Source of the DNA: Halopseudomonas pachastrellae
GTDB taxonomy: Bacteria; Pseudomonadota; Gammaproteobacteria; Pseudomonadales; Pseudomonadaceae
Assembly: GCF_900114765.1 (NCBI RefSeq)
Contig: NZ_FOUD01000006.1
Span: 62,001-126,000 of the forward strand
Direction: 5' to 3'
Length of the DNA stretch: 64,000 bases
Below the pieces are notes generated by a model that was not told the origin of the DNA, ran no database searches, and worked only from the letters and a program-made list of their open reading frames with translations. Made by a program: the position numbers and the translations under genes. Positions 14,961 to 31,125 of the stretch are shown piece after piece (position 1 is the stretch's first letter; every line of letters starts with the position of its first letter).

Positions 14961-16070
14961 ATGTCGAATATTGATCGCCGCACACTCTTGAAACTGGCCG
15001 GGTTGATCGGCGTTACTGCCGCCATGCCATTCAGCTTTGCACGCGCTGCAGATAACCCGCTGGTGGTGGGCTTTATCTATGTCGGCGCCCGTGACGATTT
15101 TGGCTACAACCAGGCGCATGCCGAGGCCGCGGCCATCATCAAGACGCTGCCGAACGTGGTGGTGGTTGAAGAAGAGAACGTGCCTGAGACAGTGGCCGTG
15201 CAAAAGTCGATGGAAGCGATGATCCGTCAGGATGGCGCTACGCTGATCTTCCCGACTTCCTTCGGTTACTTCGACCCGCACGTCATCAAGATGGCCGAGC
15301 GCTTCCCGGACGTACACTTTGCCCATTGCGGTGGCCTGTGGACCGAGGGTGTGCACCCGACCAATGCCGGCAGCTTCTTCGGTTACATCGACGAGGGCCA
15401 GTATCTCAATGGTGTGGTCGCCGGTTTTGCCAGCCAAACCAAGAAGCTGGGCTTTATTGCCGCCAAGCCGGTGCCGCAGGTACTGCGCAACATCAACGCC
15501 TTTACCCTGGGCGCGCGCTCGGTTGATCCGGAAATTACCACTACCGTGATATTCACCGGCGACTGGTCGTTGCCGATCAAGGAAGCAGAAGCCGCCAACA
15601 GCCTGATCGACCAGAGCTGTGACGTGCTGACCTGCCACGTGGATGGCCCCAAGGTGATCGTTGAAACGGCCGAGAAGCGTGGCGCCATGACCTGCGGCTA
15701 TCACGCCGACCAGTCTGCACTGGCGCCCAACGGTTACCTGACCGGTGCCGAGTGGAACTGGGAAACCCCCTATCGCGCCCATGTGGCTGCTTCCCAGGCG
15801 GGTGAGCCGATGATCAACTTCCTACGTGGCGGCCTGAAGGAAGGCTTCGTCAAGACCTCGCCGTACGGGCCCCTGGTCAGCGCTGAAGCCAAGGCCCGCG
15901 CCGATGCCATCAAGGCCGAGATGATGGCCGGCGGCTTTGCCATCTTTACCGGCCCGCTGAAGGACAATCAGGGCAACGAGGTAATCGCTGCGGGGACTGC
16001 GCTGGGTCAGACCGATGTCGTGCTGGAGAGCATGGACTATCTGGTTGAAGGCGTACGCGGCCAGATCTGA
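14961..16070 (+). CDS. BMP-family ABC transporter substrate-binding protein
   Basis: Periplasmic binding protein of the basic-membrane-protein/PnrA family, whose members bind nucleosides, purines and related bases. The ATG at 14961 follows AAGGAGCTATCC; the frame is open further upstream but lacks a site. The N-terminus MSNIDRRTLLKLAG carries an RR-x-L-L-K motif, then a hydrophobic core ending FARA, so a Tat-type signal is likely. The mature part holds LVVGFIYVGARDDFGYNQAH and GFIAAKPVPQVLRNINAFTLGA. It is the first gene of an eight-to-nine-gene operon with two permeases and a double ATPase. The AtzT protein of the Pseudomonas ADP atrazine plasmid belongs to the same type. Confidence 0.88.
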   Translation: MSNIDRRTLLKLAGLIGVTAAMPFSFARAADNPLVVGFIYVGARDDFGYNQAHAEAAAIIKTLPNVVVVEEENVPETVAVQKSMEAMIRQDGATLIFPTSFGYFDPHVIKMAERFPDVHFAHCGGLWTEGVHPTNAGSFFGYIDEGQYLNGVVAGFASQTKKLGFIAAKPVPQVLRNINAFTLGARSVDPEITTTVIFTGDWSLPIKEAEAANSLIDQSCDVLTCHVDGPKVIVETAEKRGAMTCGYHADQSALAPNGYLTGAEWNWETPYRAHVAASQAGEPMINFLRGGLKEGFVKTSPYGPLVSAEAKARADAIKAEMMAGGFAIFTGPLKDNQGNEVIAAGTALGQTDVVLESMDYLVEGVRGQI

Positions 16071-16078
16071 GGTAACTG

Positions 16079-17185
16079 ATGAATCCTCGCAATGCGATCT
16101 ATCGGGCCGGGGCGCTGCTGCTCCCCGGTCTGCCTACGCTACTCGCTGCGCTGACCACCTTTGTGCTGTTCATGCTGTTTCTGGCGTTGCAGGGCAAACC
16201 TGCCTGGCAGGCCTGCCAACTGGTAGTACAAGGCGCGTTCGGCTCGGCGTTTGCCTGGGAGAACACGCTGCAACGTGCGGCGCCGCTGATGTTGACGGCG
16301 TTGTGCGTTGCGCTGCCGGCGCGTGCCGGCCTGATCATTATTGGTGGTGAGGGCGCGCTGGTACTGGGCGGGCTTGCCGCTGCGGTGACGCCGCTGTGGC
16401 TGCCGGCCATGCCGGTGACGCTGTTGCTGCTGTGCATGGCACTGTCGGCCATGGTGGTGGGTGGTTTCTGGATTGGCCTCAATGGCTGGATGCGTCAGAA
16501 ACGCGGCCTGAACGAAACCATCGGCAGCCTGCTGCTTTCCTACGTGGCCATCGCCATTTTCAACCAGCTGGTCGAAGGCCCGCTGCGCGATCCGGCCAGT
16601 CTCAACAAGCCCTCAACCATACCGCTGGATGACAGCGTGATGATCGGCCCGATCAGCGATGCCTTTCAGGTTCACTGGGGGCTAGTGGTCGGCGTTATCG
16701 CCTGCATTCTTGCGCAAGTGCTGGTGCGCAACAGCGTGACCGGCTTTTCCTTGCAGGTGGTCGGCGGCAACGTGCGCACCGCGCGCATGATCGGCCTGCC
16801 GGTGGATCGCCTGGTGATTCTCACCTGTGTGCTAGGCGGTGCCTGTGCCGGTCTGGCCGGCATGTTTGAGGTGGCGGCGGTGCAGGGCAGTGCCAATGCG
16901 GCGATTATCGCCGGCTATGGCGCAAGCGGCATTCTGGTGGCCTTTGCCGCGCGGCAGAACCCGCTGGCAATCATTGCCTGCGCCATTTTGCTCGGTGGTA
17001 TCGAAGCCAGTGGCAGCTTGCTGCAACGTCGCCTCGGCCTGCCGGATGCGACCACGCTGATCCTGGAGGGGATTCTGTTTACCAGCCTGCTGGCCTGGGA
17101 AGCATTGACCCCGCGCATTGTCGCCTGGCGGCTGCGTCTGAACGAACGTGCAATACAGGCGCAGGGGGCGTTGCAACATGGCTGA
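16079..17185 (+). CDS. ABC transporter permease, BMP/nucleobase type (first subunit)
   Basis: A 368-residue inner-membrane permease with about eight to ten hydrophobic segments. Family landmarks are ALPARAGLIIIGGEGALVLGG and LNETIGSLLLSYVAIAIFNQ, as in the RbsC/BMP-associated permeases. The ATG follows GAGGTAACTG, eight bases after the binding-protein gene, and its end overlaps the start of the second permease. The two permeases probably form a heterodimer. Confidence 0.88.
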   Translation: MNPRNAIYRAGALLLPGLPTLLAALTTFVLFMLFLALQGKPAWQACQLVVQGAFGSAFAWENTLQRAAPLMLTALCVALPARAGLIIIGGEGALVLGGLAAAVTPLWLPAMPVTLLLLCMALSAMVVGGFWIGLNGWMRQKRGLNETIGSLLLSYVAIAIFNQLVEGPLRDPASLNKPSTIPLDDSVMIGPISDAFQVHWGLVVGVIACILAQVLVRNSVTGFSLQVVGGNVRTARMIGLPVDRLVILTCVLGGACAGLAGMFEVAAVQGSANAAIIAGYGASGILVAFAARQNPLAIIACAILLGGIEASGSLLQRRLGLPDATTLILEGILFTSLLAWEALTPRIVAWRLRLNERAIQAQGALQHG

Positions 17186-18098
17186 TCTTGATCTGGCAAC
17201 TTTCTTTCTGGCGCTGCTGGCCGGCGCCATTCGTGTCGGTACGCCCTTCATCTTTGTCAGCCTCGGTGAGTGTCTGACGGAAAAGAGCGGGCGTATCAAC
17301 CTGGGCCTTGAAGGCATTCTGGTCAGTGGCGCCATGGCCGGTTACGCGGTGGCCTACCTCAGTGGCTCTGCCTGGACCGGCGTGCTGGCCGCAGGCGGTA
17401 CCGGGTTGCTGCTGGGCTTGCTGCACGGTGCGATCTGCTCGCTGCCGCGGGTCAACGACATCGCCGTGGGTATCGCCTTGATGGTGCTGGGCACCGGCCT
17501 GGCGTTCTTTCTTGGCAAGAGCTTCATTCAGCCGCAGGCACCGTCGCTTGTGGCTATCGGCCTGGGCGGATGGAGCGAGGACGAGCGCGTGCGCTCGGCG
17601 CTGAGCATCAATGTGCTGTTCTTTATCGGCGTGGCGCTGGCCTTTGTGCTGCATTGGGGTCTGCGCAGCACCCGCTGGGGGCTGATGTTGCGGCTGGTCG
17701 GTGATCACGCCGAGTCCGCTCGGGCGCTGGGTTACCGCCCGGTGCTGGTGCGCATTGCCGCGACTGCCGCTGGTGGTTTTCTGGCCGGTATCGGCGGCGC
17801 CTATCTGTCGTTGTATTACCCCGGCAGCTGGAACGAGGGACTGTCGAGCGGGCAGGGGATCATGGCCGTGGCACTGGTGATCTTTGCCCGCTGGCAACCG
17901 CTGCGCTGTCTGTGGGCCGCCTTGCTGTTCGGCGCTGCCGGCGCCATTGGCCCGGCCCTGCAATCGGTCGGCATCAGCGCCGGTTACTACCTGTTTGCCG
18001 CTGCACCCTATGCACTCACGCTGGCGGTGATGTTCATCACCTGCCGTCCCAATCAAACCCTGAGTGGCGCCCCGGGCGAACTCAGTCTGACTCGATAG
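17178..18098 (+). CDS. ABC transporter permease, BMP/nucleobase type (second subunit)
   Basis: A 306-residue membrane protein with the family opening GTPFIFVSLGECLTEKSGRI then NLGLEGILVSGAMAGYA, and DIAVGIALMVLGTGLAFFLG. The ATG at 17178 overlaps the stop of the previous permease, giving MADLDLATFF; an upstream in-frame ATG would read through hydrophilic residues and is less likely. It partners the permease before it. The next gene starts nine bases after its stop. Confidence 0.88.
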   Translation: MADLDLATFFLALLAGAIRVGTPFIFVSLGECLTEKSGRINLGLEGILVSGAMAGYAVAYLSGSAWTGVLAAGGTGLLLGLLHGAICSLPRVNDIAVGIALMVLGTGLAFFLGKSFIQPQAPSLVAIGLGGWSEDERVRSALSINVLFFIGVALAFVLHWGLRSTRWGLMLRLVGDHAESARALGYRPVLVRIAATAAGGFLAGIGGAYLSLYYPGSWNEGLSSGQGIMAVALVIFARWQPLRCLWAALLFGAAGAIGPALQSVGISAGYYLFAAAPYALTLAVMFITCRPNQTLSGAPGELSLTR

Positions 18099-18107
18099 GA
18101 GCTAACT

Positions 18108-19115
18108 ATGTCCAGTGGTCTGGGTGGTCTCAACAAGTCGCCGAACGGCGTTGTCATCGGTCTGGCGCAACTGGCGTTGCCTGATCCGCATACCCGCGCA
18201 GAGCTGTGGGAGCAGACCCAAAAGGTCGTTGCCATGGTCGGCAAGGCGCGTCGCAGCGTCGCCGGTATGGATTTGATCGTGTTCCCGGAATACTCGCTGC
18301 ACGGCCTGTCGATGGATACCTCCGACGACATCATGTGCACCCTCGACGGGCCGGAAGTAGCCGCGCTGCGTCAGGCCTGCGTCGATAACGCGATCTGGGG
18401 CTGCTTCTCGATCATGGAAGCCAACCCCAACGGCAACCCCTACAACAGCGGTATCATCGTCAACGATCAGGGCGAGATTCAGCTGTATTACCGCAAGCTG
18501 CATCCGTGGGTCCCGGTCGAACCGTGGGAGCCGGGCAACCTGGGTATTCCGGTTTGTGACGGGCCCAAGGGCAGCAAGCTGGCGCTGATTATCTGCCACG
18601 ATGGGATGTTCCCCGAGATGGCGCGTGAATGTGCCTACAAGGGCGCGGAGATCATGATTCGTACCGCCGGTTACACCGCGCCCATTCGCCACTCCTGGCA
18701 GATCACCAATCAGGCCAACAGCTTCTGCAACTTGATGCAGACCGCGAGCGTTTGCATGTGCGGCTCGGACGGCACCTTCGACTCCATGGGCGAGGCGATG
18801 TTTGTCGACTTTGACGGCACGCCAATGGCCGTTGGCGGCGGCCGCGCTGACGAGATTGTCAGCTGCGAGATGCGGCCTGATCTGGTGCGCGAGGCGCGCG
18901 TTCACTGGGGGGTGGAGAACAACATCTACCAGTTCGGTCACCGCGGCTATACGGCCGTCAAAGGTGGCGCGCAGGATGCGCCCTACAGCTATATGCACGA
19001 CCTGGTCGCCGGTAAATACCGCCTGCCGTGGGAAGACGAGGTGGTGCATACCGATGGCACTTCCTGCGGCTTTGACACTCCCGAACGCACCTATCAACCG
19101 GCTGAGGAGAACTGA
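18108..19115 (+). CDS. Formamidase/aliphatic amidase (AmiF-like nitrilase superfamily)
   Basis: Hydrolyses a short amide, in AmiF formamide to formate and ammonia. The 335-residue length equals Helicobacter AmiF. The nitrilase triad is visible as Glu61 (VFPEYSLHG), Lys130 (YYRKLHPWVPVEPWEPG) and Cys163 (IICHDGMFPEMARECAYKGA). The same family includes acetamide-cleaving AmiE, so the substrate could be wider. Its place between the nucleobase-type permease and a biuret-hydrolase-like gene suggests it removes formyl or amide nitrogen from ring-opening products. The ATG follows GGAGCTAACT. Confidence 0.88.
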   Translation: MSSGLGGLNKSPNGVVIGLAQLALPDPHTRAELWEQTQKVVAMVGKARRSVAGMDLIVFPEYSLHGLSMDTSDDIMCTLDGPEVAALRQACVDNAIWGCFSIMEANPNGNPYNSGIIVNDQGEIQLYYRKLHPWVPVEPWEPGNLGIPVCDGPKGSKLALIICHDGMFPEMARECAYKGAEIMIRTAGYTAPIRHSWQITNQANSFCNLMQTASVCMCGSDGTFDSMGEAMFVDFDGTPMAVGGGRADEIVSCEMRPDLVREARVHWGVENNIYQFGHRGYTAVKGGAQDAPYSYMHDLVAGKYRLPWEDEVVHTDGTSCGFDTPERTYQPAEEN

Positions 19116-19118
19116 GCC

Positions 19119-19808
19119 ATGACCGAGCGTTATCTGCAGTCTGCTCCCTATCCCTGGCCCTACAACGGCAACCTGACGCCTGAGAACACTGCGCTGATCG
19201 TTATCGACATGCAGACCGACTTCTGCGGCAAGGGCGGTTATGTCGACTCGATGGGCTATGACCTGTCGCTGACCCGCGCGCCGATCGAGCCGATTAGCCG
19301 AGTGCTGGAGGTGCTGCGCGAGCAGGGCTTCTGGATCATCCACACCCGTGAAGGGCATCGTCCGGATCTGTCTGATCTGCCGGCCAACAAGCGTTGGCGT
19401 TCGCAGCGTATCGGCGCGGGTATCGGCGATACCGGCCCGTGCGGGCGCATTCTGGTGCGCGGCGAGCCAGGCTGGGAAATCATCCCCGAGCTGGCGCCAA
19501 TCGACGGCGAGATCATCATCGACAAGCCGGGCAAGGGCTCGTTCTGCGCTACCGATCTGGAACTGATTCTGCGTACTCGCGGTATCGAGAACATCATTCT
19601 GGCCGGCATCACCACCGACGTCTGCGTGCACACCACCATGCGCGAAGCGAATGACCGCGGTTTTGAGTGCATCCTGCTGGAAGACTGCTGCGGCGCGACC
19701 GATCACGCCAACCACCTGGCGGCTCTGAGCATGGTCAAGATGCAGGGCGGGGTGTTCGGCGCCATTGGTGATTCGGCCATGCTGATCGACTGCCTCAAGC
19801 AGGTGTGA
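19119..19808 (+). CDS. Biuret hydrolase-like cysteine hydrolase (isochorismatase superfamily)
   Basis: Probable biuret amidohydrolase, converting biuret to allophanate and ammonia. The 229-residue protein has the catalytic triad Asp30 (VIDMQTDFC), Lys136 ([15 protein letters not shown]) and Cys169 ([19 protein letters not shown]). The 106- and 33-residue spacings equal those I recall for the Rhizobium biuret hydrolase BiuH. Extended matches to that enzyme include [41 protein letters not shown] and LEDCCGATD. The close resemblance is from memory and was not aligned by program. The ATG follows GAGGAGAACTGAGCC, three bases after the formamidase stop. Confidence 0.85.
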
Positions 19809-19810
19809 CT

Positions 19811-21352
19811 ATGCGCGCCCTGAGTCTGGAAACCATCGGCGCTGGCAAGGTATTTGGCAGCTTTCGCGCGCTGGATGACGTCTCCATGCAGGTCCGTGCC
19901 GGCACCGTCCACGCGCTGCTGGGTGAGAACGGCGCGGGCAAGAGCACGCTGGTCAAGGGCATTGTCGGATACGGCCCGCTGGATGAGGGCAGTGTGCTGG
20001 TGGGCGGCCGGGAGCAGAGCATCGCCTCGCCCCGCGACTCACATGGTCTGGGCATCGGCATGGTGTACCAGCACTTTACCGTCGCCCCCGGCCTGAGCGT
20101 GGCGGAAAACCTGGTGCTCTCGCGCGGCGAGCTGCCTTGGGCTATTGACTGGAAACAGGAGCGGGCGGCGCTGGATGCCTTTATGGCCCGCATGCCGTTC
20201 AAGCTGGATGTTGAGCGCGCGGTCAGTTCGCTGGCCGCTGGCGAAAAGCAGAAGCTGGAGATCCTCAAGCAGCTGTATCTGGATCGGCGTTTCATCATTC
20301 TCGACGAGCCCACCTCGGTGCTGACGCCGCAGGAGGCCGAGGAAGTATTGGGCCTGATGCAGCAACTGGCGCACGCCGGTGAGCTGTCGGTGCTGATGAT
20401 CACCCACAAGTTTGGCGAGGTCATGCGCTTTGCCGACGACGTGACGGTGCTGCGGCGCGGCAAACTGGTCGGCAGCAAGGCGGTGGCTGACACTGACGAG
20501 GCCGAGCTGTCGGCCTGGATGATGGGCGAGAGCCGCGAACAGCAGAGCGCGCTGGAGCGGGTGGAGCATCTGGCCGAACGCACGCCGGGGCTGGAGGTCA
20601 GCAACCTCAAGGTTGCCAATGACCGTGGCACCTTGGCGGTCAAGGGCGTTTCGCTGTCGGTGCTGCCGGGGGAGATCGTCGGTATCGCGGGCATTTCCGG
20701 CAACGGCCAGCGCGAGCTGACCGAAGCGCTGCTTGGCCAACGCCCGACCAGCTCGGGCGAGGTGCGCGTCAACGGCCGGCCCTACGCTGCCAGCCGTGTC
20801 GAAATGCAACGTGAAAAGGTCTACAGCCTGCCGGAAGAGCCGCTGCGCAACGCTTGCATCGCCGGCATGAGCGTGGCGGAGAACCTGGCCCTGCGTGATT
20901 ACGACCACGCACCGTTGTGTCGCAGTGGCTGGCTGATCAACCGCCGGGCTATTCGTGAGCGTGCCCGCGAGCTGATCAGCCGCTTTCAGGTGCGCCCGGA
21001 TGACCCGGACCGGCCCATCGGCACGCTGTCTGGCGGCAACGTGCAGCGCGCCGTGCTGGCCCGCGAGCTGACCGAAGACGTGGCGGTGCTGATTGTCTCC
21101 AACCCGGTGTTCGGTCTGGACTTTGCCTCTGTGGCGCTGATTCACCGGCGACTGCTGGAAGCGCGCAACCGTGGCGCCGCCGTGCTGTTGCTCAGCGAAG
21201 ACCTGGATGAACTACTGGAGCTGTCGGACCGGATTCTGGTCATCCACGATGGCGAAATAAACCACGAAACCGTCCCCGCAGCGGCCGAGCGTCAGGTGCT
21301 CGGGCGCTACATGGCCGGTACCGAGCAAGCGGCTCAACAGGTGGCAGGATGA
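19811..21352 (+). CDS. ABC transporter ATPase with two nucleotide-binding domains (BMP/sugar type)
   Basis: Energises the BMP-type importer. The 513-residue protein has two ATPase domains. The first holds Walker [10 protein letters not shown] (about residue 38), signature [11 protein letters not shown] and Walker [10 protein letters not shown]. The second has the degenerate Walker [10 protein letters not shown] and signature [10 protein letters not shown], the asymmetric arrangement usual for RbsA/BMP-type ATPases. The ATG at 19811 is preferred over a GTG two codons upstream. It overlaps the next gene by ATGA. Confidence 0.9.
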
Positions 21353-22023
21353 TCGAGGTAACAGCGGTACCGGACAACTTTGCCTTTGACCCCGAGCGTA
21401 CCGCGCTGGTGGTCATCGACATGCAGCGCGACTTTATCGAACCCGGCGGCTTTGGTGCGGCGCTGGGTAACGATGTTACACCGCTCGCGGCCATCATCCC
21501 GGCGGTGCAGCAGCTGCTGGACATCGCGCGACAAGCCGGTCTGCTGGTGATTCATACCCGTGAGTCGCACCTGCCGGATCTGTCTGACTGCCCACCCGCC
21601 AAGCGCGCCGGTGGGCCGCCGGGCATGCAGATTGGTGACGTTGGCCCCATGGGCCGGATCCTGGTGCGTGGCGAGCCCGGTAACCAGATTCTGGAGGCGG
21701 TTGCGCCGCTGGCCGGCGAGTGGGTGATCGACAAGCCCGGCAAGGGCATGTTCTACGCCACCGGCCTGCACGAGCGCCTACAGCAGCAGGGCATTGACAG
21801 CCTGATCTTTGCCGGTGTGACCACCGAAGTTTGTGTGCAGACCAGCATGCGCGAGGCCAATGATCGCGGTTACCGTTGCCTGCTGATCGATGAGGCCACA
21901 GAGAGCTATTTCCCTGAATTCAAACAGGCGACGTTGGCCATGATTACCGCGCAAGGCGGAATCGTTGGCCGTGTTGCCCGACTGCAGCAGCTGCAGGCAA
22001 GCCTTGGAGTGAGCAATGACTGA
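21349..22023 (+). CDS. Second cysteine hydrolase of the isochorismatase superfamily
   Basis: A 224-residue amidohydrolase related to the biuret-hydrolase-like protein but clearly diverged. The triad is Asp24 (VVIDMQRDF), Lys129 ([13 protein letters not shown]) and Cys162 ([19 protein letters not shown]). It keeps [18 protein letters not shown] and [11 protein letters not shown]. The superfamily includes biuret and triuret hydrolases, N-carbamoylsarcosine amidase and RutB, so a ureide amide bond is the likely target. Translationally coupled to the ATPase (ATGA) and overlapping the AtzH-like gene by eight bases. Confidence 0.82.
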
Positions 22024-22408
22024 TATCAACCTGCCGGCGGTCGTCAAAGAGGTGACCGAGGCGTTTACTGACTACGAGCGGGCGCTACTGGTCAATGAGA
22101 TGGACACCCTGGACCACTACTTCTGGGACAGCGAACACACCGTGCGCTACGGCGTGGCCGAGAACCTCTATGGCGCCAAGGCGATTGCCGATTACCGCCG
22201 GGTGTGCGTGCCGGTCAGCCCCGGCCGCGAACTCTACAACACCGTGGTCAGCACCTTTGGCGAGGACTATGCCACCGTCAGCACTCAATTCCGCGATGGT
22301 GAGACGACGCGTGTTGGTCGCCAGATGCAGACTTGGGCGCGGATTGACGGGCGTTGGCAGGTCGTTGCTGCGCATGTCAGTATCGATCTGTCTTCTCTTC
22401 AGGAATAA
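22016..22408 (+). CDS. AtzH/HpxZ-like protein (DUF3225, NTF2 fold)
   Basis: A 130-residue NTF2-fold protein of the DUF3225 type. AtzH occurs in the cyanuric acid operon atzDEF region and HpxZ in oxalurate catabolism. Visible features are the opening helix [20 protein letters not shown] and [20 protein letters not shown], then [16 protein letters not shown]. The exact step is not certain for any member. Its presence beside two ureide-type hydrolases supports a pathway for linear urea derivatives. The start ATG overlaps the preceding hydrolase gene. Confidence 0.8.
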
Positions 22409-22414
22409 GCGCAC

Positions 22415-23101: not shown

Positions 23102-23125
23102 ATTACAGTCTTTAGCGAGTACAAT

Positions 23126-23149
23126 AAAGCCCCGCAGCTGCGGGGCTTT
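23126..23149. terminator. Bidirectional terminator between the two catabolic operons
   Basis: AAAGCCCCGCAG and CTGCGGGGCTTT form a perfect 12-bp palindrome, with T-rich sequence following on the plus strand (TTTGTTGTTTC) and T's on the minus strand. It lies 24 bp after the GntR stop and 18 bp from the end of the opposing ring-opening amidohydrolase gene. Confidence 0.9.
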
Positions 23150-23167
23150 GTTGTTTCTAGTGCTGCT

Positions 23168-24262
23168 TTACGGGCGCAGAATCAGTGCCAGCGGGCCGCC
23201 GCCGTTGGGCCCCTGATGCTCGGCACCGCCAGACACAAACAACCGGGTGTCGCCGAGCCTGCCGGCCAGCACGCCACCAACCAGCGAGCGAGCATGGCGT
23301 GAGCCGTTGATGTCGCTGTCGTCGCTCATCACGTGGCGGTTGCCGCGAATCTCACCTGACGCTGAGGGCTCGGCCTTGACCAGCAGGCCGGTCATGTTGT
23401 CGGGCGTGATGGTCAGCTGCGCGCCGCCGGGCATGCTGGCCAGCGCGCGGTCGATGGCGGCGGTATCCAGGGCGTCTTCCATGACCGCGTGGCCGATGCG
23501 GTAGGCCGGGTCCCAGCCGGCGGCGTTGCCCAGCACCAGCACTTCGTTACGCAGCAGCTCGATACCGGCCGAGGTGCTGGCGCGGGTGGAGTAGAGCGAC
23601 CAGTCGCTACAGATTTTCTCGTTACTCAGCTGCTCTGCCGTCAGATCGCCCAGCGCTACGGCGACGCCCAGTGCCGAGGCACCGCGTGAGTAGCCCATGG
23701 ACTCGTAGGTGTCGTGGCAGGCGGTGGTGTGCCCGCGCGATGCCGCTTCGCTTATGCGCGAGGCGGTCAGCAGCGGGCATTTGATCTGCACAAAGTGCAC
23801 GTCATCTTCGCGCTGGATGCCGGCGCTGGCCATGGCACGGCGCACCGCGTCGCGGGTTTCCATGACCTGTTCCAGGCGGCCGATTTCTTCCGGTTTGAAG
23901 TCGCGGGTAAAGGCGACGCCGGCCGCCAGTCCAGGCAGGCTGTAATCGGCGTTTTCATCGCTGCTGTCGACTTCAAATACCAGCCAGTGCGGGCTCAGAC
24001 CGCCCTCGGTGCCACCGGACATGACAAAGGCAATACGCTCCTCAACCTTGGCTTCCGACAAGGTCAGTTGCTGGGCAAAGAAACGGCGCAGGGTGCTGGT
24101 CGCAAAGGCGCGGGTAAAGTCATTCACGCAGCCGTTGCCTTCGGTCTTGCCGAGTACGGCAATGACGCGGGTAGGGTCGATCTGGCCGTTGCTGATGGCC
24201 TGGGCCAGGGTAGAGATGTCGTCTGGCGAGCTGGCGCTCAGACGGGTGACGCGCGTTTTCAT
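23168..24262 (-). CDS. Ring-opening amidohydrolase (cyanuric acid amidohydrolase/barbiturase family)
   Basis: Opens a six-membered cyclic imide; known members act on cyanuric acid (AtzD, TrzD) or barbituric acid. The 364-residue protein has the three-repeat layout with a Ser-Lys pair in each: Lys39 (VLGKTEGNGCVNDFTR) with Ser82 (FVMSGGTEGGLSP), Lys161 (VQIKCPLLT) with Ser231 (STSAGIEL), and Lys296 (LLVKAEPS) with Ser344 (FVSGGAEHQGPNGGGP). The spacings of the first two pairs match AtzD as I remember it. Cyanuric acid versus barbiturate specificity cannot be read here. Last gene of the minus-strand operon. Confidence 0.9.
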   Translation of the reverse strand: MKTRVTRLSASSPDDISTLAQAISNGQIDPTRVIAVLGKTEGNGCVNDFTRAFATSTLRRFFAQQLTLSEAKVEERIAFVMSGGTEGGLSPHWLVFEVDSSDENADYSLPGLAAGVAFTRDFKPEEIGRLEQVMETRDAVRRAMASAGIQREDDVHFVQIKCPLLTASRISEAASRGHTTACHDTYESMGYSRGASALGVAVALGDLTAEQLSNEKICSDWSLYSTRASTSAGIELLRNEVLVLGNAAGWDPAYRIGHAVMEDALDTAAIDRALASMPGGAQLTITPDNMTGLLVKAEPSASGEIRGNRHVMSDDSDINGSRHARSLVGGVLAGRLGDTRLFVSGGAEHQGPNGGGPLALILRP

Positions 24263-24282: not shown

Positions 24283-24318
24283 GGTCAGGTCAAATGGGTC
24301 AGGTCGAATGCGTCAGGC
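24283..24318. repeat. 14-bp tandem repeat at the end of the DUF3830 gene
   Basis: GGTCAGGTCAAATG (24283-24296) and GGTCAGGTCGAATG (24297-24310) differ at one base. A partial third copy CGTCAGG overlaps the DUF3830 stop codon (24313-24315). Slippage appears to have lengthened the spacer before the last gene of the operon. Confidence 0.7.
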
Positions 24319-24738
24319 GAGCTCGAAACTGATGTCCTGAGCGCCCTCCCAGAGGGTCTTCATGCCGAGGGCACGCAGGTTCTCACGGCCCTCGATGATG
24401 GTCAGAAAGTGGTTGCCGGCCAGCTGTCCGAGCTTGCTGGAGAAGCTGCAGGCGCCGTAGGCCATGATGATCTCGGTCTCGCTGTAACCACCGGGGTAGA
24501 AGAGCACGTCGCCAACCGAGGGGTGGCTGGTGTGGTTTTCAAAGCCGATCGGCTGCTCGCCGTTCTTGAGCTGATAGTCGCCCAGCGGCACCCAGGCGCC
24601 TTCGCCGCTCCAGCGCACGTGGATCAGTTTCTGGTGGTAGGGCAGCAGCGAGAGAAAGGCCGCCACGGTGTCGGGCGCGTCGGGGTGGCACTCGGCAATA
24701 AAGTCGAAGCCGCCGGCGCTGATCTTGATACGGGTCAT
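24313..24738 (-). CDS. DUF3830 family protein
   Basis: A 141-residue protein of the DUF3830 family, which is thought to have a cyclophilin-like barrel. Recognisable stretches are FDFIAECHPDAPDTVAAFLS, LPYHQKLIHVRWSGEGAWVP and SVGDVLFYPGGYSETEIIMA. No catalytic residues can be named. The role is unknown; its place between the LOG-type enzyme and the ring-opening amidohydrolase ties it to the same pathway. The ATG follows AGGAATCCCCCC. Confidence 0.75.
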   Translation of the reverse strand: MTRIKISAGGFDFIAECHPDAPDTVAAFLSLLPYHQKLIHVRWSGEGAWVPLGDYQLKNGEQPIGFENHTSHPSVGDVLFYPGGYSETEIIMAYGACSFSSKLGQLAGNHFLTIIEGRENLRALGMKTLWEGAQDISFELA

Positions 24739-24754
24739 GGGGGGATTCCTTGTG

Positions 24755-25354
24755 TCAGGAGCCGGGCTGGCCGATCCATTTGGTGACGGTGGGCGCTTTC
24801 CACTGGTCGATTTGCTCCAGCGCTTTGAGCGGGTCGGCTTCGAGAATCAACATGTCGCAGTGCTCAATCTTCATGAAGCCTTCCGCGGTGGCGTGGGTCA
24901 GCATGTTGCGCAGCGGCACAAAAAAGTCGCGCACGTTGAGGCAGGCCAGAGCCTTCTGGTGCTCGGCCAGCTGGGTCAGGGTGGCGACTTCAAACAGCTC
25001 TTCCAGCGTGCCCAGCCCGCCGGGCAGGGCGACAAAGGCGTCGGCCAGCTCGGCCATGCGCGCCTTGCGCTCGCGCATGCCGGAGACCACTTCGTGTCCG
25101 GTCAGCTTGGGGTGCAGGTGCCCACGCGCTTGCAGGCGTTCGGTGATCACGCCGATGACCTCGCCGCCGGCGTCCAGCGCGGCATCGGCAACCACGCCCA
25201 TCAGGCCCTTGGTGGTGCCGCCGTAGACCAGGCGCTGGCCTCGCTCGGCAAGGGTCTGGCCGAGCTTTTTTGCTTGCTCGATGTAGTCTTCATGGGCGCC
25301 AAAGTTGGAGCCGGAGAACACCGCGATGCTGTTGATGTTCGGGTTACGGGTCAT
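24755..25354 (-). CDS. LOG-family phosphoribohydrolase (TIGR00730, Rossmann fold)
   Basis: Family members cleave a base from its nucleoside 5'-monophosphate, as the plant and bacterial LOG enzymes do for cytokinins; many were once mislabelled lysine decarboxylase. The 199-residue protein shows IAVFSGSNFGAHEDYIEQAK, LVYGGTTKGLMG, the signature PGGLGTLEELFE and, upstream of it, MRERKARM. The ATG at 25354 overlaps the permease stop as ATGA; an upstream in-frame ATG at 25387 lies inside the permease gene. In this operon it could release a free cyclic base for ring opening. Confidence 0.85.
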   Translation of the reverse strand: MTRNPNINSIAVFSGSNFGAHEDYIEQAKKLGQTLAERGQRLVYGGTTKGLMGVVADAALDAGGEVIGVITERLQARGHLHPKLTGHEVVSGMRERKARMAELADAFVALPGGLGTLEELFEVATLTQLAEHQKALACLNVRDFFVPLRNMLTHATAEGFMKIEHCDMLILEADPLKALEQIDQWKAPTVTKWIGQPGS

Positions 25355-26133
25355 GCGGCCTCCGAGCCTTTGCCACGTTGGGTCCAACTGGTGAAACGGC
25401 TTTCAACCAGCGCTGATACTGAATAAAGCGCGACGCCCAGGGCGGCCAGAATGAACAGCCCGGCAAACACCAGCGGTACGTCGAAGTTGCCACTGGCAAT
25501 CATCATCACGTTGCCGATGCCTTTGTTGGAGGCCACGGTTTCGGCCAGTACGGTGCCGATAAACGCCGAGGTCAGGGCGATCTTCAGTGAGGCGAACAGG
25601 TAGGGCAGGGTGCGCGGCAGGCCGACATTCCAGAGGATGTCGCGCTTCTTGGCGCCGAGCACGCGCAGCACGTCTTCCAGCTCCGGCTCGGTGGTGGCGA
25701 GGCCCGTTGCCACGTTGACCACCACCGGGAAGATGCCGATGACCATGGAGGTCAGAATCGCCGGGATGGTGCCCGAGCCAAACCAGACCACAAAGATCGG
25801 CACCACGGCGACCTTGGGAATACTGGAAAAGCCCACCAGCAGTGGATAGGCGATGTCGTAGGCGACCCGCGAGGAGCCGATGATCACGCCGATCAGCAGG
25901 CCGATGAATACCCCCAGAAAGAAGCCGACCAGCGTGGTCATCAGCGTTTGCTGGGTGTGCGGCCAGAGAATCGGCATCTTCTCGATCAGCACCGCAGCAA
26001 TCTGGCTGGGCACCGGCAACACCAGCTCGGAGACGCCCAGCAGCCGGCACAGCACTTCCCAGAGCAGGAAGAAGCCGATCATCGCCGAGAAAGACAACAG
26101 GTTGCGCCGCCAGCGCGGCAGGGGCTTGCTCAT
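25351..26133 (-). CDS. ABC transporter permease (NitT/TauT, SsuC type)
   Basis: A 260-residue permease with about six membrane helices. The family EAA-like loop is visible as EPELEDVLRVLGAKKRDILW then VGLPRTLPYLFASLKIALTS. Related permeases carry nitrate, taurine, sulfonates, or thiamine-pyrimidine precursors. It overlaps the ATPase stop (ATGA) and the LOG start (ATGA), so the three are translationally coupled. GGAGGT precedes the ATG. Confidence 0.88.
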   Translation of the reverse strand: MSKPLPRWRRNLLSFSAMIGFFLLWEVLCRLLGVSELVLPVPSQIAAVLIEKMPILWPHTQQTLMTTLVGFFLGVFIGLLIGVIIGSSRVAYDIAYPLLVGFSSIPKVAVVPIFVVWFGSGTIPAILTSMVIGIFPVVVNVATGLATTEPELEDVLRVLGAKKRDILWNVGLPRTLPYLFASLKIALTSAFIGTVLAETVASNKGIGNVMMIASGNFDVPLVFAGLFILAALGVALYSVSALVESRFTSWTQRGKGSEAA

Positions 26134-26999
26134 GCGGATACCTCCTCAGGCTGACGTTGTGCGGCAGTGCGCTGGGTGCTGCCGGGCGCGCGGGCCTCGG
26201 CAATGCTCATGCGCAGTGACTGCACCAGACTGGTGAAATCGGGTTGGTAGCTTGATTCGAGCGTGCGCGGGCGCGCGAAGGTGACGCGCTGATCTTCGAT
26301 GATGCGGCCGGGGCGCGAACTCATCACGCAGATGCGGCTGGCCAGATAGGCCGACTCGCGCAGATCGTGGGTCACCAGCAACACGGTCGGTCGGCGGTTG
26401 ATCCACAGATCCTGCATGGTGTCCCACAGCTCTTCCCGGGTGAATTGATCAAGGGCGCCGAAGGGTTCGTCGAGCAGCAGAATGTCGGGCTCATGCACCA
26501 GCGCCCGGCACAGAGAGGCGCGCTGCAACATGCCGCCGGACAGCTGCCAGGGCCGCTTGTTGCCGAAGCCGGCCAGACCGACCTGCTCCAGCAGAGCCTC
26601 GGCGCGTTCGCGGAACTCGCCTTTGCGCTTGCGGCGGTAGTCCTGACGGAATGGCTCGACGATCTTCAGCGGGATCATCACGTTATCCAGAATGCTCAGC
26701 CACGGCAGCATGGTCGGGTTCTGGAAGGCCAGACCCAGGCGCTTGGCGTGGCTGCCGATGGCGCCGACCTCGCGGCCGCCGACAATGGCGGCGCCGGCGG
26801 TCGGTTCCAGCAGGCCGGCGACCAGCTTGAGAATGGTGGATTTGCCGCAGCCGCTGGGCCCGACAAGAGCAACAAAGTCGCCCTTGTCGATGCGCAGCGT
26901 GGTGTTGTCCAACGCGACCACATTGCCGCCATAACGAACCGTCACATCGGACAGTTCGATCATTGGCCGCGTGGCGCTGATGGATTGGGTGTCAGTCAT
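26130..26999 (-). CDS. ABC transporter ATP-binding protein (NitT/TauT, SsuB type)
   Basis: A single-domain ATPase of 289 residues: Walker A GPSGCGKST (about residue 57), Q-loop region FQNPTMLPWLSI, signature LSGGMLQRASL, Walker B ILLLDEPFGALD and switch histidine LLVTHDLRES. The ATG at 26999 (MTDTQSISAT) is preferred over one further upstream. It works with the permease that follows and the binding protein at 29282, although two enzyme genes separate them. Confidence 0.9.
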   Translation of the reverse strand: MTDTQSISATRPMIELSDVTVRYGGNVVALDNTTLRIDKGDFVALVGPSGCGKSTILKLVAGLLEPTAGAAIVGGREVGAIGSHAKRLGLAFQNPTMLPWLSILDNVMIPLKIVEPFRQDYRRKRKGEFRERAEALLEQVGLAGFGNKRPWQLSGGMLQRASLCRALVHEPDILLLDEPFGALDQFTREELWDTMQDLWINRRPTVLLVTHDLRESAYLASRICVMSSRPGRIIEDQRVTFARPRTLESSYQPDFTSLVQSLRMSIAEARAPGSTQRTAAQRQPEEVSA

Positions 27000-27015
27000 G
27001 AGTCTGCTCCTGCGC

Positions 27016-28464
27016 TCAGCGCCGTGGCTCCGCGGTCGGGCGCACACCTTCAGGCGTGCTCAGGATCGCGTTGGTGTAGTGCTCGGTGTTCTGCGGGCGC
27101 GGTGTCGGCATTTGCTGGATGGCTTTGACCGAACGGCCCCAGCCAGCGGCCTCGGTGACCAGCTCGCCGTTGCGCATCACAAATTTGCCGCGCACCAGCG
27201 TATGCAGCGGATAGCCCTTGACCGGGCGACCATGCCAGGGCGAGATCTTGCTGGTGCTGTGCAGCTGGTTTTCCGAGAGGATGCCGCTGCGCTGCATATC
27301 GACAATGGCGATGTCGGCGTCGGCGCCGGGGGTGATCACGCCCTTTTTGCCGTAGATGCCCCAGGCTTTGGCCGGGCTGACCGAACTCCAGCGCACGTAG
27401 TCCATCAGGCTGGCGCGTTCGCGGTTGACCTCGGTGAGCATCAGCGCCATCTGGGTTTCGATGCCGGGGAAGCCGCAGTCACACTCCCAGATGTTCTCGC
27501 GGGTCTTCTCTTCCGGCGCGTGTGGCGCATGGTCGGTGGCGATCATGTCGATGGTGCCGTCCATCAGCGCATCCCACAGCGGCTGGTTGTGCCGGGGCTC
27601 GCGAATCGGCGGGTTCAGCCGCAGGATGCCACCCAGGCGGTCGGTATGGTCGGTGTTGAGCAGCAGATACTGCGGGCAGGTCTCAACGGTCACGTCGACG
27701 CCACGGCGCTTGGCCTCGCGGATCAGAAACAGCGAATCGGCGGCGCTGTGGTGGGCGATGTGCACCCGTGCGCCGGTCCATTCGGCCAGGGTCAGCACGC
27801 GGCCAATGGCTTCAATCTCGGCGACCACCGGGCGGGCGGCTAAATGCGCCAACGCGTCGATGCGACCGGCGTCCTGCATGCGCTTCTGGCGGCGGGAGAG
27901 AATAGACGAGTTCTCGGCGTGCACCACGGTACGAATGCCCAGCGGGGCCAGTTTCTCGAAGCCTTCGAGCAGCGCGCCATCGGTGGGCGCCGGCAGGTTG
28001 CCGAAGGTGTTGCCGACAAAGGCCTTGAAGCTGGTGCAGCCGGCGTCGATCAACTCTTCCAGGTGGCCGACGGTGTCGTCACCCAGCAGGCCGTGAATGC
28101 CGTAGTCAACGTAGGACGACTCGGCGGCTTTCTGCTTCATGCGCAGGGCTTCGATGGTGCCGGTCGGCGGGTTGGTGTTGGGCATGTCGAAGACGGTGGT
28201 TACGCCACCACAGGCCGCAGCGGCCGAGCCGGTCTTCCAGGTTTCCTTGTGGGCGTAGCCCGGGTCACGGAAGTGCACGTGGCTGTCGATCGCACCCGGC
28301 AGCAGGTACAGGCCGTCGGCTTGTACTACCTCGCGGGCAGATGGCATCAGCTCATCGCGGCCCACGGCAACGATCTTCTCGCCGTCGATGGCCACCGATG
28401 CTTCGATTATCTGGTGGTCTGATACAACGCGGGCGCCGCGGATCAGCAGGTCAACTTGGTTCAT
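27016..28464 (-). CDS. Cyclic amidohydrolase (dihydroorotase/allantoinase/hydantoinase class)
   Basis: A 482-residue TIM-barrel metal enzyme that hydrolyses a cyclic amide or imide. Metal ligands are visible: HxH in GAIDSHVHFRDPGYAHKETW, the lysine in CTSFKAFVGNTFG likely to be carboxylated, histidines in RTVVHAENSS and VHIAHHSAADS, and the aspartate in MIATDHAPHAPEEK. The pattern fits class I dihydroorotase and allantoinase equally. Because pyrimidine synthesis genes are not nearby and ureide hydrolases are, a catabolic ring such as a hydantoin, allantoin or dihydropyrimidine is more probable. The C-terminal tail after about residue 440 is longer than usual. Confidence 0.85.
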   Translation of the reverse strand: MNQVDLLIRGARVVSDHQIIEASVAIDGEKIVAVGRDELMPSAREVVQADGLYLLPGAIDSHVHFRDPGYAHKETWKTGSAAAACGGVTTVFDMPNTNPPTGTIEALRMKQKAAESSYVDYGIHGLLGDDTVGHLEELIDAGCTSFKAFVGNTFGNLPAPTDGALLEGFEKLAPLGIRTVVHAENSSILSRRQKRMQDAGRIDALAHLAARPVVAEIEAIGRVLTLAEWTGARVHIAHHSAADSLFLIREAKRRGVDVTVETCPQYLLLNTDHTDRLGGILRLNPPIREPRHNQPLWDALMDGTIDMIATDHAPHAPEEKTRENIWECDCGFPGIETQMALMLTEVNRERASLMDYVRWSSVSPAKAWGIYGKKGVITPGADADIAIVDMQRSGILSENQLHSTSKISPWHGRPVKGYPLHTLVRGKFVMRNGELVTEAAGWGRSVKAIQQMPTPRPQNTEHYTNAILSTPEGVRPTAEPRR

Positions 28465-28473
28465 CAGGTACTC

Positions 28474-29265
28474 CTAAAGCATGGCCCAGCCGCCATCGAC
28501 CGGGAGGTCGACGCCGGTGATCTGGCGGGAGACGTCGCTGCCGAGAAACAGGCAGGCATTGGCAACGTCCTGGTCGGTGGAGACGCGCTTGAGCGCGTAG
28601 TCGGCGGCGTGGCGGGTGGCGGCTTCTTCCGGGCTGATGCCCAGCGTTTTGGCCATGTTGGCGCACACCTTGTCGCGAAAGCGCGGGCCATCCACCATGC
28701 CGGGGGCAACGCAGTTGACGTTGATACCGTGCGGGCCGGCTTCCAGCGCAAAGCTCTTGGTAATGCCGCGCAGGCCCCACTTGGAGGCGGAATAGGCCAT
28801 GCGGCCGGCGCGTCCGCGCATGCCGAAGGTGCCGCCAACGTTGACGATCTTGCCGCTGCCTTGCTCGATCATCGCGGGCATTACTGCGCGCATGGTGTTG
28901 AAGCAGCCGGTCATGTTGAGCTGAACGATCTCGTCGAACTCGCTCTGGGTGGTGTCCCAGCCGGTCTTGCCAATCGGGCCGGAGCCGCCGGCCACGTTGA
29001 CCAGTACGTCGATGCGGCCGAAGCAGTCCAGTGCCGCGGCCGCAAGGGCCTCGGCATCTGCACTGCGGGTCATGTCGCATGGCACCACTTCTACCTCGCT
29101 GCCCAGTTCGGTGACTTCGCGGGCGACCGGCGCGATGGCGTCCAGATCGCGGCCGGCCAGCACCAGGCGGGCGCCTTCGCGGGCAAAGGCGAGGGTGACG
29201 GCCCGGCCCATCCCTTTGGCCGGGCCGGTGATGACAACGACTTTGTCCTGCAGATCAAGATTCAT
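28474..29265 (-). CDS. Short-chain dehydrogenase/reductase
   Basis: A 263-residue NAD(P)-dependent oxidoreductase of the classical SDR type. Cofactor loop TGPAKGMGRAVTLAFA (residues about 14-29), NVAGG, and the active-site YSASKWGLRG are present. The C-terminal SRQITGVDLPVDGGWAML is the usual ending. It may oxidise or reduce the ring or a side chain before hydrolysis; the substrate is unknown. It starts 16 bp after the binding-protein gene. Confidence 0.88.
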   Translation of the reverse strand: MNLDLQDKVVVITGPAKGMGRAVTLAFAREGARLVLAGRDLDAIAPVAREVTELGSEVEVVPCDMTRSADAEALAAAALDCFGRIDVLVNVAGGSGPIGKTGWDTTQSEFDEIVQLNMTGCFNTMRAVMPAMIEQGSGKIVNVGGTFGMRGRAGRMAYSASKWGLRGITKSFALEAGPHGINVNCVAPGMVDGPRFRDKVCANMAKTLGISPEEAATRHAADYALKRVSTDQDVANACLFLGSDVSRQITGVDLPVDGGWAML

Positions 29266-29281
29266 CAGTGTCTCCCGTCGC

Positions 29282-30325
29282 TCACAGTTTGCTCGGGCGG
29301 TCAGCCCGGGCCGGCAGGAAGCTGCGGTCGAAGATCTGGGTCGGGGCCGGTGCGTTCTCCAGCTGGTTGGCCTTGACCACGATGTCGATGTTCTGCTGCA
29401 GGCGGTCGTCGCTGACGTCGCCCAGGCCGATGTCGGCGATTTCCGGGTGGCTCATGTCGTTGCGTACGGTGGTCAGCATCTTGTCGGTCTCGACCGCGCG
29501 GTTGAGCAGCGGCTCGCGGCGCATCAGTGCGTCGATGGCTTCTTCGGGGTTGGCGACGGCGTCCTGAATGGCCTGGTTGATGGCGGCGACAAAGCCACGC
29601 ACGGCCTCAGGGTGCTCGGCGATGAACTCCTGGGAGAAGAAGATCGAGTTGGAGTACAGGTCCATGCCGTGATCGCCGTAGCGAATGAAGCGCAGCTCCT
29701 CGTCCGGGTTGATGCCCATGCCCTTGGCGCTGAAGCTGATGGTGGTGATGTAACCGAAGGCAGCGTCGATCTGGCCGCGCATCAGCAACTGCTCACGCAG
29801 GTTGGGCGCCATGTTGTTGATGGTGACCTTGGACTGGTCTATGCCGGTCATCTCGGCAAAGGCCGGGAACAGCTTCAGGGCGGCGTCGTTAGCCGGGGCG
29901 CCGACGATCTTGCCTTCCAGATCCTGCGGTTCGGTGATCGGACTGTCGCTCTTGACCGCAATCACGAACGGCGGGGTGTTGTAGATCATGTAAACGCCCA
30001 CCGGCGCACGCTCCGGCTGGGTCGAGGCCAGCTGGATCAGCGCGTTGGTGTCACCAAAGCCCGCGTCGTAGACACCTGAGGCCACCTTCGGAATGGAAGC
30101 GGCAGAGCCTTCGCCCTGATCGATGGTGACGTTCAGGTCGTGCTCCTTGAAGTAGCCCTTGTCTTCGGCGAGGAAGAACCAGGCCTGGGCGCCTTCGTAC
30201 TTCCAGTTCAGAACCAGGTCGATATCGGTCGCCGCCTGTGCGTTGGCCGCGGCGAACATGCCCAAGCCAAGGCTGAGGGCGCTAAGGGTTTTGGCCAGAC
30301 GTGGCCGGCGGATTTTTGCTGACAT
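29282..30325 (-). CDS. ABC transporter substrate-binding protein (NitT/TauT, SsuA/ThiY type)
   Basis: A 347-residue periplasmic binding protein. The N-terminus MSAKIRRPRLAKTLSALSLG with a hydrophobic stretch ending AANAQA is a Sec signal peptide. The mature protein opens DIDLVLNWKYEGAQAWFFLA and has GYFKEHDLNVTIDQGEGSAA, typical of the NMT1/ThiY-like group that binds pyrimidine-like and sulfonate ligands. It pairs with the permease and ATPase at 25351-26999. The ATG follows GGAGTCTTGAAT, and the gene begins two bases after the cysteine hydrolase stop. Confidence 0.88.
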   Translation of the reverse strand: MSAKIRRPRLAKTLSALSLGLGMFAAANAQAATDIDLVLNWKYEGAQAWFFLAEDKGYFKEHDLNVTIDQGEGSAASIPKVASGVYDAGFGDTNALIQLASTQPERAPVGVYMIYNTPPFVIAVKSDSPITEPQDLEGKIVGAPANDAALKLFPAFAEMTGIDQSKVTINNMAPNLREQLLMRGQIDAAFGYITTISFSAKGMGINPDEELRFIRYGDHGMDLYSNSIFFSQEFIAEHPEAVRGFVAAINQAIQDAVANPEEAIDALMRREPLLNRAVETDKMLTTVRNDMSHPEIADIGLGDVSDDRLQQNIDIVVKANQLENAPAPTQIFDRSFLPARADRPSKL

Positions 30326-30327
30326 AT

Positions 30328-31125
30328 TCAAGACTCCTGATGGTGTGATGCGATGGCGGTATTCAGCGCAGCGGCCGTGGCAACAAAGCCGTGGCACTGC
30401 GCAACAAGAAAGTGGATGGCGCGGCTGACATAGGCCGGCGAGGGGGTAGAGCAGGCGTCGCGCAGCAGCACGCAGTCGTAGCCGAGAAAGGCCGCGTCCT
30501 GCAGGGTGGAAAAGACACAGCGGTCGGTGTTGATACCGGCGAACAGCAGACTGGTGATGCCCTGGCCGCGCAGGATGCTGTCCAGTTCGTTGTCCCAGAA
30601 GCCGCTCAGGCGGTGTTTGCACACCTGAATATCGGCGGGCTCGGGCGGCAGTTCGCTGATCACCTCCGCGCCCCAGCTGCCCTGCACCAGTGCCGGGCCG
30701 TGGTCGATTGGCGAGTGCTCGCCATAGCCCACCTCGCCCGCGCCTCGCTTGCCGACAAAGTGCACCACCGGCGGCAGATTCAGGCGGTCGGCGCGGATGC
30801 CCCAGTTGAGCCAGACCACACGGCCGCCCGCCTGGCGCCAGGCTGGCAGCAGCTTGCGCAGCGGTGCGATGGGGCGCCGTGTGGCGCGCATGCTGGCGCC
30901 TTTTTGCGCGAACCAGCCCTCGGGGTGGCAGAAGTCGTTCTGCATGTCGACCACGACCACTGCGCTGGTGCTGATGTCCAGCTCCAGGTTGCCCTGATCA
31001 CTGCCGAACAGCAGCGGCTGCGGGGTGTGGGGCGGACGCAGCAGGCTGGTCACACCGTAGTGTCGGTGCCAGGCATTGTCCGGGTGAGGGCCGTAGGCCT
31101 CGGTGTCGTCGATGGTCTTTTTCAT
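30328..31125 (-). CDS. Third cysteine hydrolase (RutB-like isochorismatase superfamily)
   Basis: First gene of the minus-strand operon; 265 residues with an N-terminal extension of about 50. The triad is Asp60 (VVVDMQNDFC), Lys170 (VCKHRLSGFWDNELD) and Cys203 (GINTDRCVFST). The 33-residue spacing between Lys and Cys is as in the other two copies. The KHRxSGFxxxxLD block resembles RutB, the ureidoacrylate hydrolase of the pyrimidine Rut pathway. Upstream in-frame ATGs at 31149 and 31167 are possible; none has a good ribosome site, so the start is uncertain. Confidence 0.8.
   Translation of the reverse strand: MKKTIDDTEAYGPHPDNAWHRHYGVTSLLRPPHTPQPLLFGSDQGNLELDISTSAVVVVDMQNDFCHPEGWFAQKGASMRATRRPIAPLRKLLPAWRQAGGRVVWLNWGIRADRLNLPPVVHFVGKRGAGEVGYGEHSPIDHGPALVQGSWGAEVISELPPEPADIQVCKHRLSGFWDNELDSILRGQGITSLLFAGINTDRCVFSTLQDAAFLGYDCVLLRDACSTPSPAYVSRAIHFLVAQCHGFVATAAALNTAIASHHQES

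Follow-up and report, generated by a model that had tools for sequence, protein, structure and literature searches.

The triuret operon of Herbaspirillum sp. BH-1 encodes TrtA, BiuH, TrtB and AtzF (PMC7948467), and a bmpA-nupABC importer has been reported together with trtA and biuH in nitrifiers (PMC12625717). The atzDGEHF genes are described from Pseudomonas sp. ADP (PMC6219798), and biuret is handled by BiuH in Rhizobium leguminosarum (PMC5806882). Here, we analyzed a stretch of 64,000 nucleotides (the window) from a 3.93 Mb genome of Halopseudomonas pachastrellae (contig NZ_FOUD01000006.1, positions 62,001 to 126,000), in which operon A (14961-23101, forward strand) and operon B (31125-23168, reverse strand) converge on one hairpin. 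We consider it fairly probable that two modules are combined here, through which nitrogen from poly-ureas and from rings is used.

Compared with the described systems, the locus showed both similarities and differences. On the one hand, it shares the key residues of TrtA, BiuH and an AtzH/TrtB-like gene with the BH-1 operon, its operon A importer is of the nucleoside type, as in the system of the nitrifiers, biuret would be handled by BiuH as in R. leguminosarum, and AtzD and an AtzH-like protein are in common with atzDGEHF. On the other hand, the locus differs from the BH-1 operon in having a formamidase inside operon A, AtzF on another contig and AtzD next door, and differs from atzDGEHF in that AtzG and AtzE are not among the locus genes scanned here. 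The dihydroorotase/allantoinase-like enzyme of operon B (B6) shares fold family and signatures with those two enzyme groups, but it passes only broad models and is set in a context of transporter, short-chain dehydrogenase/reductase (SDR) and RutB-like hydrolase (B9).

The gene families listed in a preliminary description of the locus were all recovered by profile searches with Pfam and NCBIfam. That description also proposed ureide/cyclic-imide catabolism, which stands for operon A and AtzD. Its view that no described pathway has the whole gene set is valid for the union of A and B only, since operon A itself is described (PMC7948467, PMC12625717). As to the atz and biuret genes, to which it drew a likeness, the locus has AtzD, the AtzH-like protein and BiuH. 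The likeness to the Rut pyrimidine pathway comes down to the hydrolase fold of B9: the scan of the locus genes turned up neither RutA nor other Rut genes, and B9 does not pass the RutB equivalog (TIGR03614, 128.8 bits, cut-off 377.95), so that a Rut-type pathway was rejected.

Operon A and triuret/biuret utilization

Judged from its families, residues and gene order, operon A is almost certainly the described triuret/biuret operon plus a formamidase, and hence already known. The isochorismatase-like A7 (21349-22023; forward strand, as all A genes) finds its best PDB match in the crystallized TrtA (6XIX, 327 bits), with which it aligns across nearly its entire length. Considering the catalytic and triuret-selective residues of TrtA (D24, F29, F35, N41, E72, K129, K132, A134, T158, E160, C162, Y187, Q202 and I205; PMC7948467), A7 has 13 of the 14, the exception being Met in place of A134. 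The biuret hydrolase gene biuH (A5, 19119-19808; NF050097, 420 bits, cut-off 370) is close to the TrtA gene in operon A, with A6 between the two, and A5 carries Y, Y, S, D, T, Q and V at TrtA positions 35, 41, 134, 160, 187, 202 and 205, which are the BiuH alternatives. The AtzH-like A8 (22016-22408; PF11533, 168 bits; NF033625, 155 bits, cut-off 135) is probably the carboxybiuret decarboxylase TrtB. Because the abstract of PMC12625717 says atzH where its text says trtB, we infer that TrtB is an AtzH homologue. The catalytic Tyr22 and Arg46 of AtzH (PMC6219798) fit A8 only when an offset of 2 is assumed, and with this offset four of the six other listed residues misfit.

The importer of operon A consists of a BMP/PnrA-type ATP-binding cassette (ABC) substrate-binding protein (A1, 14961-16070, starting inside the open reading frame (ORF) 14838-16070; PF02608, 123.7 bits), two BPD_transp_2 permeases (A2, 16079-17185, and A3, 17148-18098; PF02653) and an ATPase of the nucleoside/sugar type with two ATPase stretches (A6, 19805-21352; PF00005, 153 bits). 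The operon ends with a GntR/FCD regulator (A9, 22415-23101; PF00392, PF07729). Its odd member is the formamidase AmiF (A4, 18108-19115; NF009803, 563 bits, cut-off 406). Since TrtA acts weakly on formylurea, at 0.3% of its triuret activity (PMC7948467), a role of A4 on formyl-ureas is conceivable. AtzF is encoded on another contig of the genome (G000:C37; TIGR02713, 808 bits), and no urea carboxylase was noticed among its neighbor genes when these were inspected by eye. A third TrtA/BiuH homologue, 51% to TrtA, lies at G000:C23:114801-115427.

The genes A1 to A8 stand in the same order in four loci of other genomes (L015, L115, L116 and L118), and L016 has all of them with A8 moved to the opposite end. 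A version from Beijerinckiaceae (L117) has AtzD inside and no match to A4 or A8.

A probable cyanuric acid hydrolase, AtzD

B1 (23168-24262; reverse strand, as all B genes) is very likely a cyanuric acid hydrolase, and as such a newly recognized member of an established family, as judged by profile and structure matches. It scores 538 bits against NF052395 (cut-off 360), and, among PDB entries, 403 bits with cyanuric acid hydrolase 6BUM vs. 266 bits with barbiturase 5HWE. The motifs containing K39, S82, K161, K296 and S344 and the metal loop GGxEHQGPxGG are all present, and RASTS aligns to the stretch holding Ser226. At position 188 in the numbering of 4NQ3, most subgroups have Arg, and barbiturases have Gln (PMC4051656); B1 has Arg there, within SRGASALG. 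We read the aligned residue in the AtzD family and found Arg188 in all 37 readable members, including the 39% identical L014, one fragment (L118) being unreadable. A barbiturase identity of B1 was rejected by the profile scores and Arg188.

The AtzD gene is placed with operon A in L015, L016 and L116. The L015 copy is flanked by an NMT1-type binding protein on one side and the ATPase and permease of the latter on the other, and the 20 kb covered there gave no match to B6, B7 or B9. In a quick tree, the AtzDs at the end of operon B in Pseudomonas clustered with the operon A AtzDs (Shimodaira-Hasegawa-like approximate likelihood ratio test, SH-aLRT, 99), and the Burkholderiales AtzDs, which stand between B6 and B5, formed a separate group (fork support 92-94). 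Because these two groups fall apart, parsimony suggests at least two separate entries of AtzD into B.

The conserved module of operon B

The rest of operon B together with its divergent LysR gene (B9 to B2 and LysR; the B core) forms a separate conserved module, of which our literature searches on the B gene set, with subscription papers mostly outside reach, found no description. Transcribed from B9 toward B1, the module begins with an isochorismatase-fold cysteine hydrolase (B9, 30328-31125; PF00857, 127 bits), whose best PDB match is RutB (8BKD, 112 bits) and whose D74, K184 and C217 are invariant in 12 aligned sequences. There follow an NMT1/THI5-type substrate-binding protein (B8, 29282-30325, start near 30325 judged from the ORF; PF09084, 137 bits) with weak kinship to the THI5 and ThiY structures, the SDR (B7, 28474-29265; PF00106, PF13561), B6 (27016-28464), which belongs to the cyclic amidohydrolases, an SsuB/TauB-type ABC ATPase (B5, 26130-27047; PF00005) and an SsuC/TauC-type ABC permease (B4, 25351-26133; PF00528). 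B3 (24755-25387) is a LOG-type protein with a Rossmann, lysine-decarboxylase-like fold, which passes TIGR00730 (172 bits, cut-off 96) and stays under the LOG equivalog NF058542 (100, cut-off 300). B2 (24313-24738; PF12903, 100 bits) is a DUF3830 protein conserved in B loci; a literature search on DUF3830 gave no match, and the structure search no convincing solved relative (3KOP at E 0.22). The LysR regulator (31393-32280, forward strand) was recognized by NCBIfam LysR matches.

A contig scan with B6 yielded 223 relatives, from which 80 loci were kept; 56 of these were mapped with hand-set identity thresholds (L028-L083; L084-L107 stayed unmapped). B6 and the SDR stand together in 39 of the 56, and gene content was counted in the 26 of these 39 with at least 6 kb on each side. 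LysR is found in 26/26, as are, by the choice of loci, SDR and B6; the NMT1 binding protein, the ATPase and the permease each occur in 25. B9 (18/26), DUF3830 (17/26), AtzD (14/26) and LOG (13/26) are less constant. Additional genes encode an ATZ/TRZ-type deaminase (X7, in 16), a cytosine-deaminase-like protein (4) and an M20 deacylase (3). X7 scores far under every named deaminase cut-off shown; the surroundings of B in the window did not reveal a gene like X7, and the window's genome gave matches of 25-30% only. Two loci, L040 and L050, gave no SDR match; in them, an ornithine-cyclodeaminase-like reductase (160 bits, below the cut-off of 322 of its model) comes before the B6 orthologue (80% and 72%, respectively). 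In the B6 tree, both nest within the clade linked to the SDR. The presence of two unrelated reductase families in one slot suggests that the pathway includes a reduction. Two B6 paralogues, one with an SDR and the other with a cyclodeaminase-like reductase, share a locus in L071-L074, L076, L078 and L083. The genes adjoining B in L032-L034, L037 and L061 are presumably pyrD and rpiA (X14 and X19); L036 has X14 only.

B6 passes the broad models TIGR03178 (371 bits, cut-off 358) and TIGR00857 (341, cut-off 279), fails the tighter allantoinase model NF004839 (392, cut-off 631), and passes none of the dihydroorotase equivalog cut-offs shown, such as that of NF006559 (359, cut-off 482). It carries the motifs HVHFRDPG, MPNTNPP and DHAPH, and R66, N96, H315 and DHAPH are invariant in 13 sequences. 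The nearest structures, allantoinase 3HM7 and L-hydantoinase 1GKR, both differ at the sites of R66, N96 and DHAPH, with 3HM7 having N, L-N and DHSPS there. DHAPH is also present in L090, L091 and L097, which pass a dihydroorotase equivalog; L097 shows HVHLRDPG and MPNTNP as well, two sites that were not read by pattern in L090 and L091. Residues of the R66, N96 and H315 type are, as we assume, those that hold the carboxylate of dihydroorotate. Because B6 has these dihydroorotase-type residues, a carboxylated cyclic ureide is the favored class of its substrate.

Co-occurrence of the modules

We compared 38 genomes containing B with 398 control genomes of the same phylum, of which 338 are high-quality. 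The 38 derive from the 39 loci that have both B6 and SDR: L043 and L055 were dropped as short contigs, and L046, whose contig begins inside B6, was added; L029 and L061 were left out. The control includes the window's genome (G000) and apparently, judging by identical coordinates, that of L060 (G289), and removing both alters nothing. The AtzD gene (PF09663) is present in 29/38 B genomes vs. 14/398 control genomes, TrtA in 23/38 vs. 35/398, and AtzF over its cut-off in 34/38 vs. 73/398. TrtA was counted at our own line of at least 54% identity, the lowest value counted in the B genomes being 56%; counting every match at E 1e-30 gives 24/38 and 45/398. Fisher tests of the three enrichments, uncorrected for relatedness, are extreme. 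AtzD lies inside the B locus in 16 of the 38 genomes and elsewhere in 13 of the remaining 22. Of the 12 families represented by the 27 genomes with a family label, 10 have one or more members with AtzD; it is missing from Halomonadaceae (0/3) and Methyloversatilis (0/1). The B module tracks AtzD, TrtA and AtzF across genomes of alphaproteobacteria and of gammaproteobacteria, the latter as defined in GTDB and so including Burkholderiales.

The gene order sought in other genomes recurs, indicating that the arrangement is beyond chance. The nearest named relative at the locus is Pseudomonas abyssi MT5 (L028), with a 99% identical B6, and the junction of A and B in the window is found again in L028 and L115 and probably in L031/L118 across a contig break. 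In L049, A stands beside B in an arrangement differing from that of the window, and in L045/L114 TrtA is about 15 kb from B on the same contig. The preliminary description had regarded an independent occurrence of the enzymes in homologous clusters as speaking against its proposal. This applies in part: operon A genes other than GntR are near B6 only in L028 and L049 among the 56 mapped loci (flanks of at most 10 kb a side), and operon A is present without B6, B7 or B9 within the stretches of L015, L016 and L116. On the other side stand the strong co-occurrence of B, AtzD, TrtA and AtzF at the genome scale and the adjacency in L049.

Proposed function and alternative explanations

The families, residues and gene order of operon A are read directly, whereas its transport of triuret and biuret and the A8 step belong to the proposed mechanism. 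In this mechanism, A1-A3 and A6 would import triuret and biuret. TrtA would convert triuret to carboxybiuret, to which the opening of the cyanuric acid ring by B1 would also lead. Carboxybiuret is probably decarboxylated to biuret by A8, BiuH would turn biuret into allophanate, and AtzF, encoded elsewhere in the genome, would complete the route. For the B core, B8, B5 and B4 may bring in a small heterocycle, a reductase (the SDR B7, or the ornithine-cyclodeaminase-like enzyme of some relatives) may act on the ring or its product, B6 may hydrolyze a cyclic ureide bearing a carboxylate, and B9 may take off the ureido nitrogen. We tentatively propose carboxylated cyclic-ureide catabolism as a possible function of the B core, deducing all its reactions, their order and the substrate from sequence. 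The substrate class would be one that accompanies cyanuric acid and triuret, such as oxidized uric acid fragments. The conserved B module points to a natural substrate family that could account jointly for the retention of triuret and cyanuric acid genes by bacteria.

Oxonate arises from uric acid, and the hydrolysis of 5-azauracil proceeds through formylbiuret. That the B core is a pathway for oxonate or a close carboxylated cyclic ureide from oxidized uric acid is a distinctly doubtful proposal. An oxonate-like compound would fit the importer, the reductase and a hydrolase of the dihydroorotase type, as well as the association with AtzD and TrtA. In this case, the SDR or the ornithine-cyclodeaminase-like enzyme would reduce the cyclic C=N-carboxylate, B6 would open the reduced ring in the fashion of dihydroorotate, and B9 would cleave the ureido product. 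If so, A, AtzD and B would form a complete salvage set for the non-enzymatic oxidation products of urate (triuret, cyanuric acid and oxonate), in which the formamidase would act on the formyl-ureas that 5-azauracil gives. The chemical oxidation of uric acid can yield triuret and cyanuric acid (PMC7948467, Figure 1 legend). The compound 4,6-dioxo-1,3,5-triazine-2-carboxylate (oxonic acid, 5-azaorotate) is an inhibitor of pyrimidine biosynthesis and yields 5-azauracil on decarboxylation (PMC4011208); orotate phosphoribosyltransferase is inhibited by oxonate (PMC3837334). A literature search, with subscription papers mostly outside reach, found no report of bacterial oxonate or allantoxanate breakdown.

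Several points weigh against joining the modules and against a carboxylated ureide as substrate. Genomes that are related do not count as independent cases, and many of those compared are metagenome-assembled. Since 13 of the 14 control genomes with AtzD also have TrtA at the 54% line, these two genes are coupled regardless of B, and their enrichments are not independent. B occurs without AtzD and without TrtA in all three Halomonadaceae genomes, in Methyloversatilis, and in L072 and L076, and L029, with a 97% identical B6, has B1 and no operon A within 6 kb beyond it. Arg188 is common to all 37 AtzD sequences, distant ones included, so that it speaks against a barbiturase and is weakly specific for cyanuric acid. 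The carboxylate on the substrate is not certain, considering that B6 is also over the broad allantoinase cut-off, and LOG and DUF3830 have no place in the explanation.

The same broad allantoinase match and the two nearest structures would suit an allantoin/hydantoin pathway, with ring opening of allantoin or of a simple hydantoin by B6 and release of the carbamoyl group by B9. We consider this unlikely, given that B6 departs from 3HM7 at R66, N96 and DHAPH and lies far under NF004839, and that an allantoate amidohydrolase is not among the locus genes scanned. A catabolic orotate/dihydroorotate route, leading through a reductase, B6 as dihydroorotase and B9 as ureidosuccinate hydrolase to aspartate, appears rather improbable. 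It would agree with the DHAPH shared with the dihydroorotase-passing loci, with the TIGR00857 match and with the replacement of the SDR by an ornithine-cyclodeaminase-like reductase, but it leaves the link with AtzD, TrtA and AtzF unexplained, and we know of no SDR that reduces orotate. The orotate-catabolism literature, examined in part, gave no description of the B module.

That A and B are unrelated nitrogen-scavenging modules, adjacent by chance, seems very unlikely to us: each is found without the other nearby, but TrtA, AtzD and AtzF co-occur with B at the genome scale, the arrangements of A and B differ between Pseudomonas and L049, and TrtA is close to B in L045/L114. In the opposite direction, A and B could form one line, in which the deaminases of related loci and the B enzymes prepare s-triazines as cyanuric acid for AtzD. 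The frequency of X7, the position of AtzD within B in Burkholderiales and its enrichment in B genomes point that way. We nevertheless regard this line as highly improbable, considering that the window has no X7-like gene seen beside B and its genome only distant matches, that the ring-opening B6 and B9 would be superfluous for making cyanuric acid, and that 9 of the 38 B genomes lack AtzD. Creatinine-like routes use a deaminase, a hydantoinase and an N-carbamoylsarcosine amidase; such a route was set aside, as no deaminase was noticed next to B in the window and the genome lacks close relatives of X7.

Locus boundaries and neighboring regions

The ends at 14961 and 31125, taken from the preliminary description, are start codons within slightly longer ORFs. 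The intergenic spacing is -38 to +9 bases in operon A and at most 50 bases in operon B, where a nominal overlap of -295 between B8 and B9 results from an ORF start placed too far upstream. Operons A and B are separated by 66 bases, and this gap contains a single strong hairpin (23126-23149, without strand; from the fold of 23105-23160), which folds on both strands (forward, -28.4 kcal/mol, z -6.4; reverse, -22.7 kcal/mol, z -4.3). Coordinates and fold agree with the earlier claim of two convergent operons meeting at one terminator. The hairpin is not among the 15 matches of a terminator scan, whose total is near the shuffled mean of 12.3, and the promoter/terminator scan gained nothing further for the locus.

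Directly after the LysR gene lies a hydroxyethylthiazole kinase-like gene (32363-33175, forward strand; PF02110), which among the 56 B6 loci, with flanks covered, is common to only L028. The reverse-strand genes at 33181-37731 encode a major facilitator superfamily transporter, GAPDH, a flavin mononucleotide (FMN) reductase and ArsR and include one ORF that no Pfam model matched, a set that we take to resemble arsenic resistance. The type I restriction genes hsdM and hsdS follow at 37974-40992, with a transfer-messenger RNA gene not far away (47812-48165), and the guanine-cytosine content falls to 0.49 at 40-42 kb of the window.

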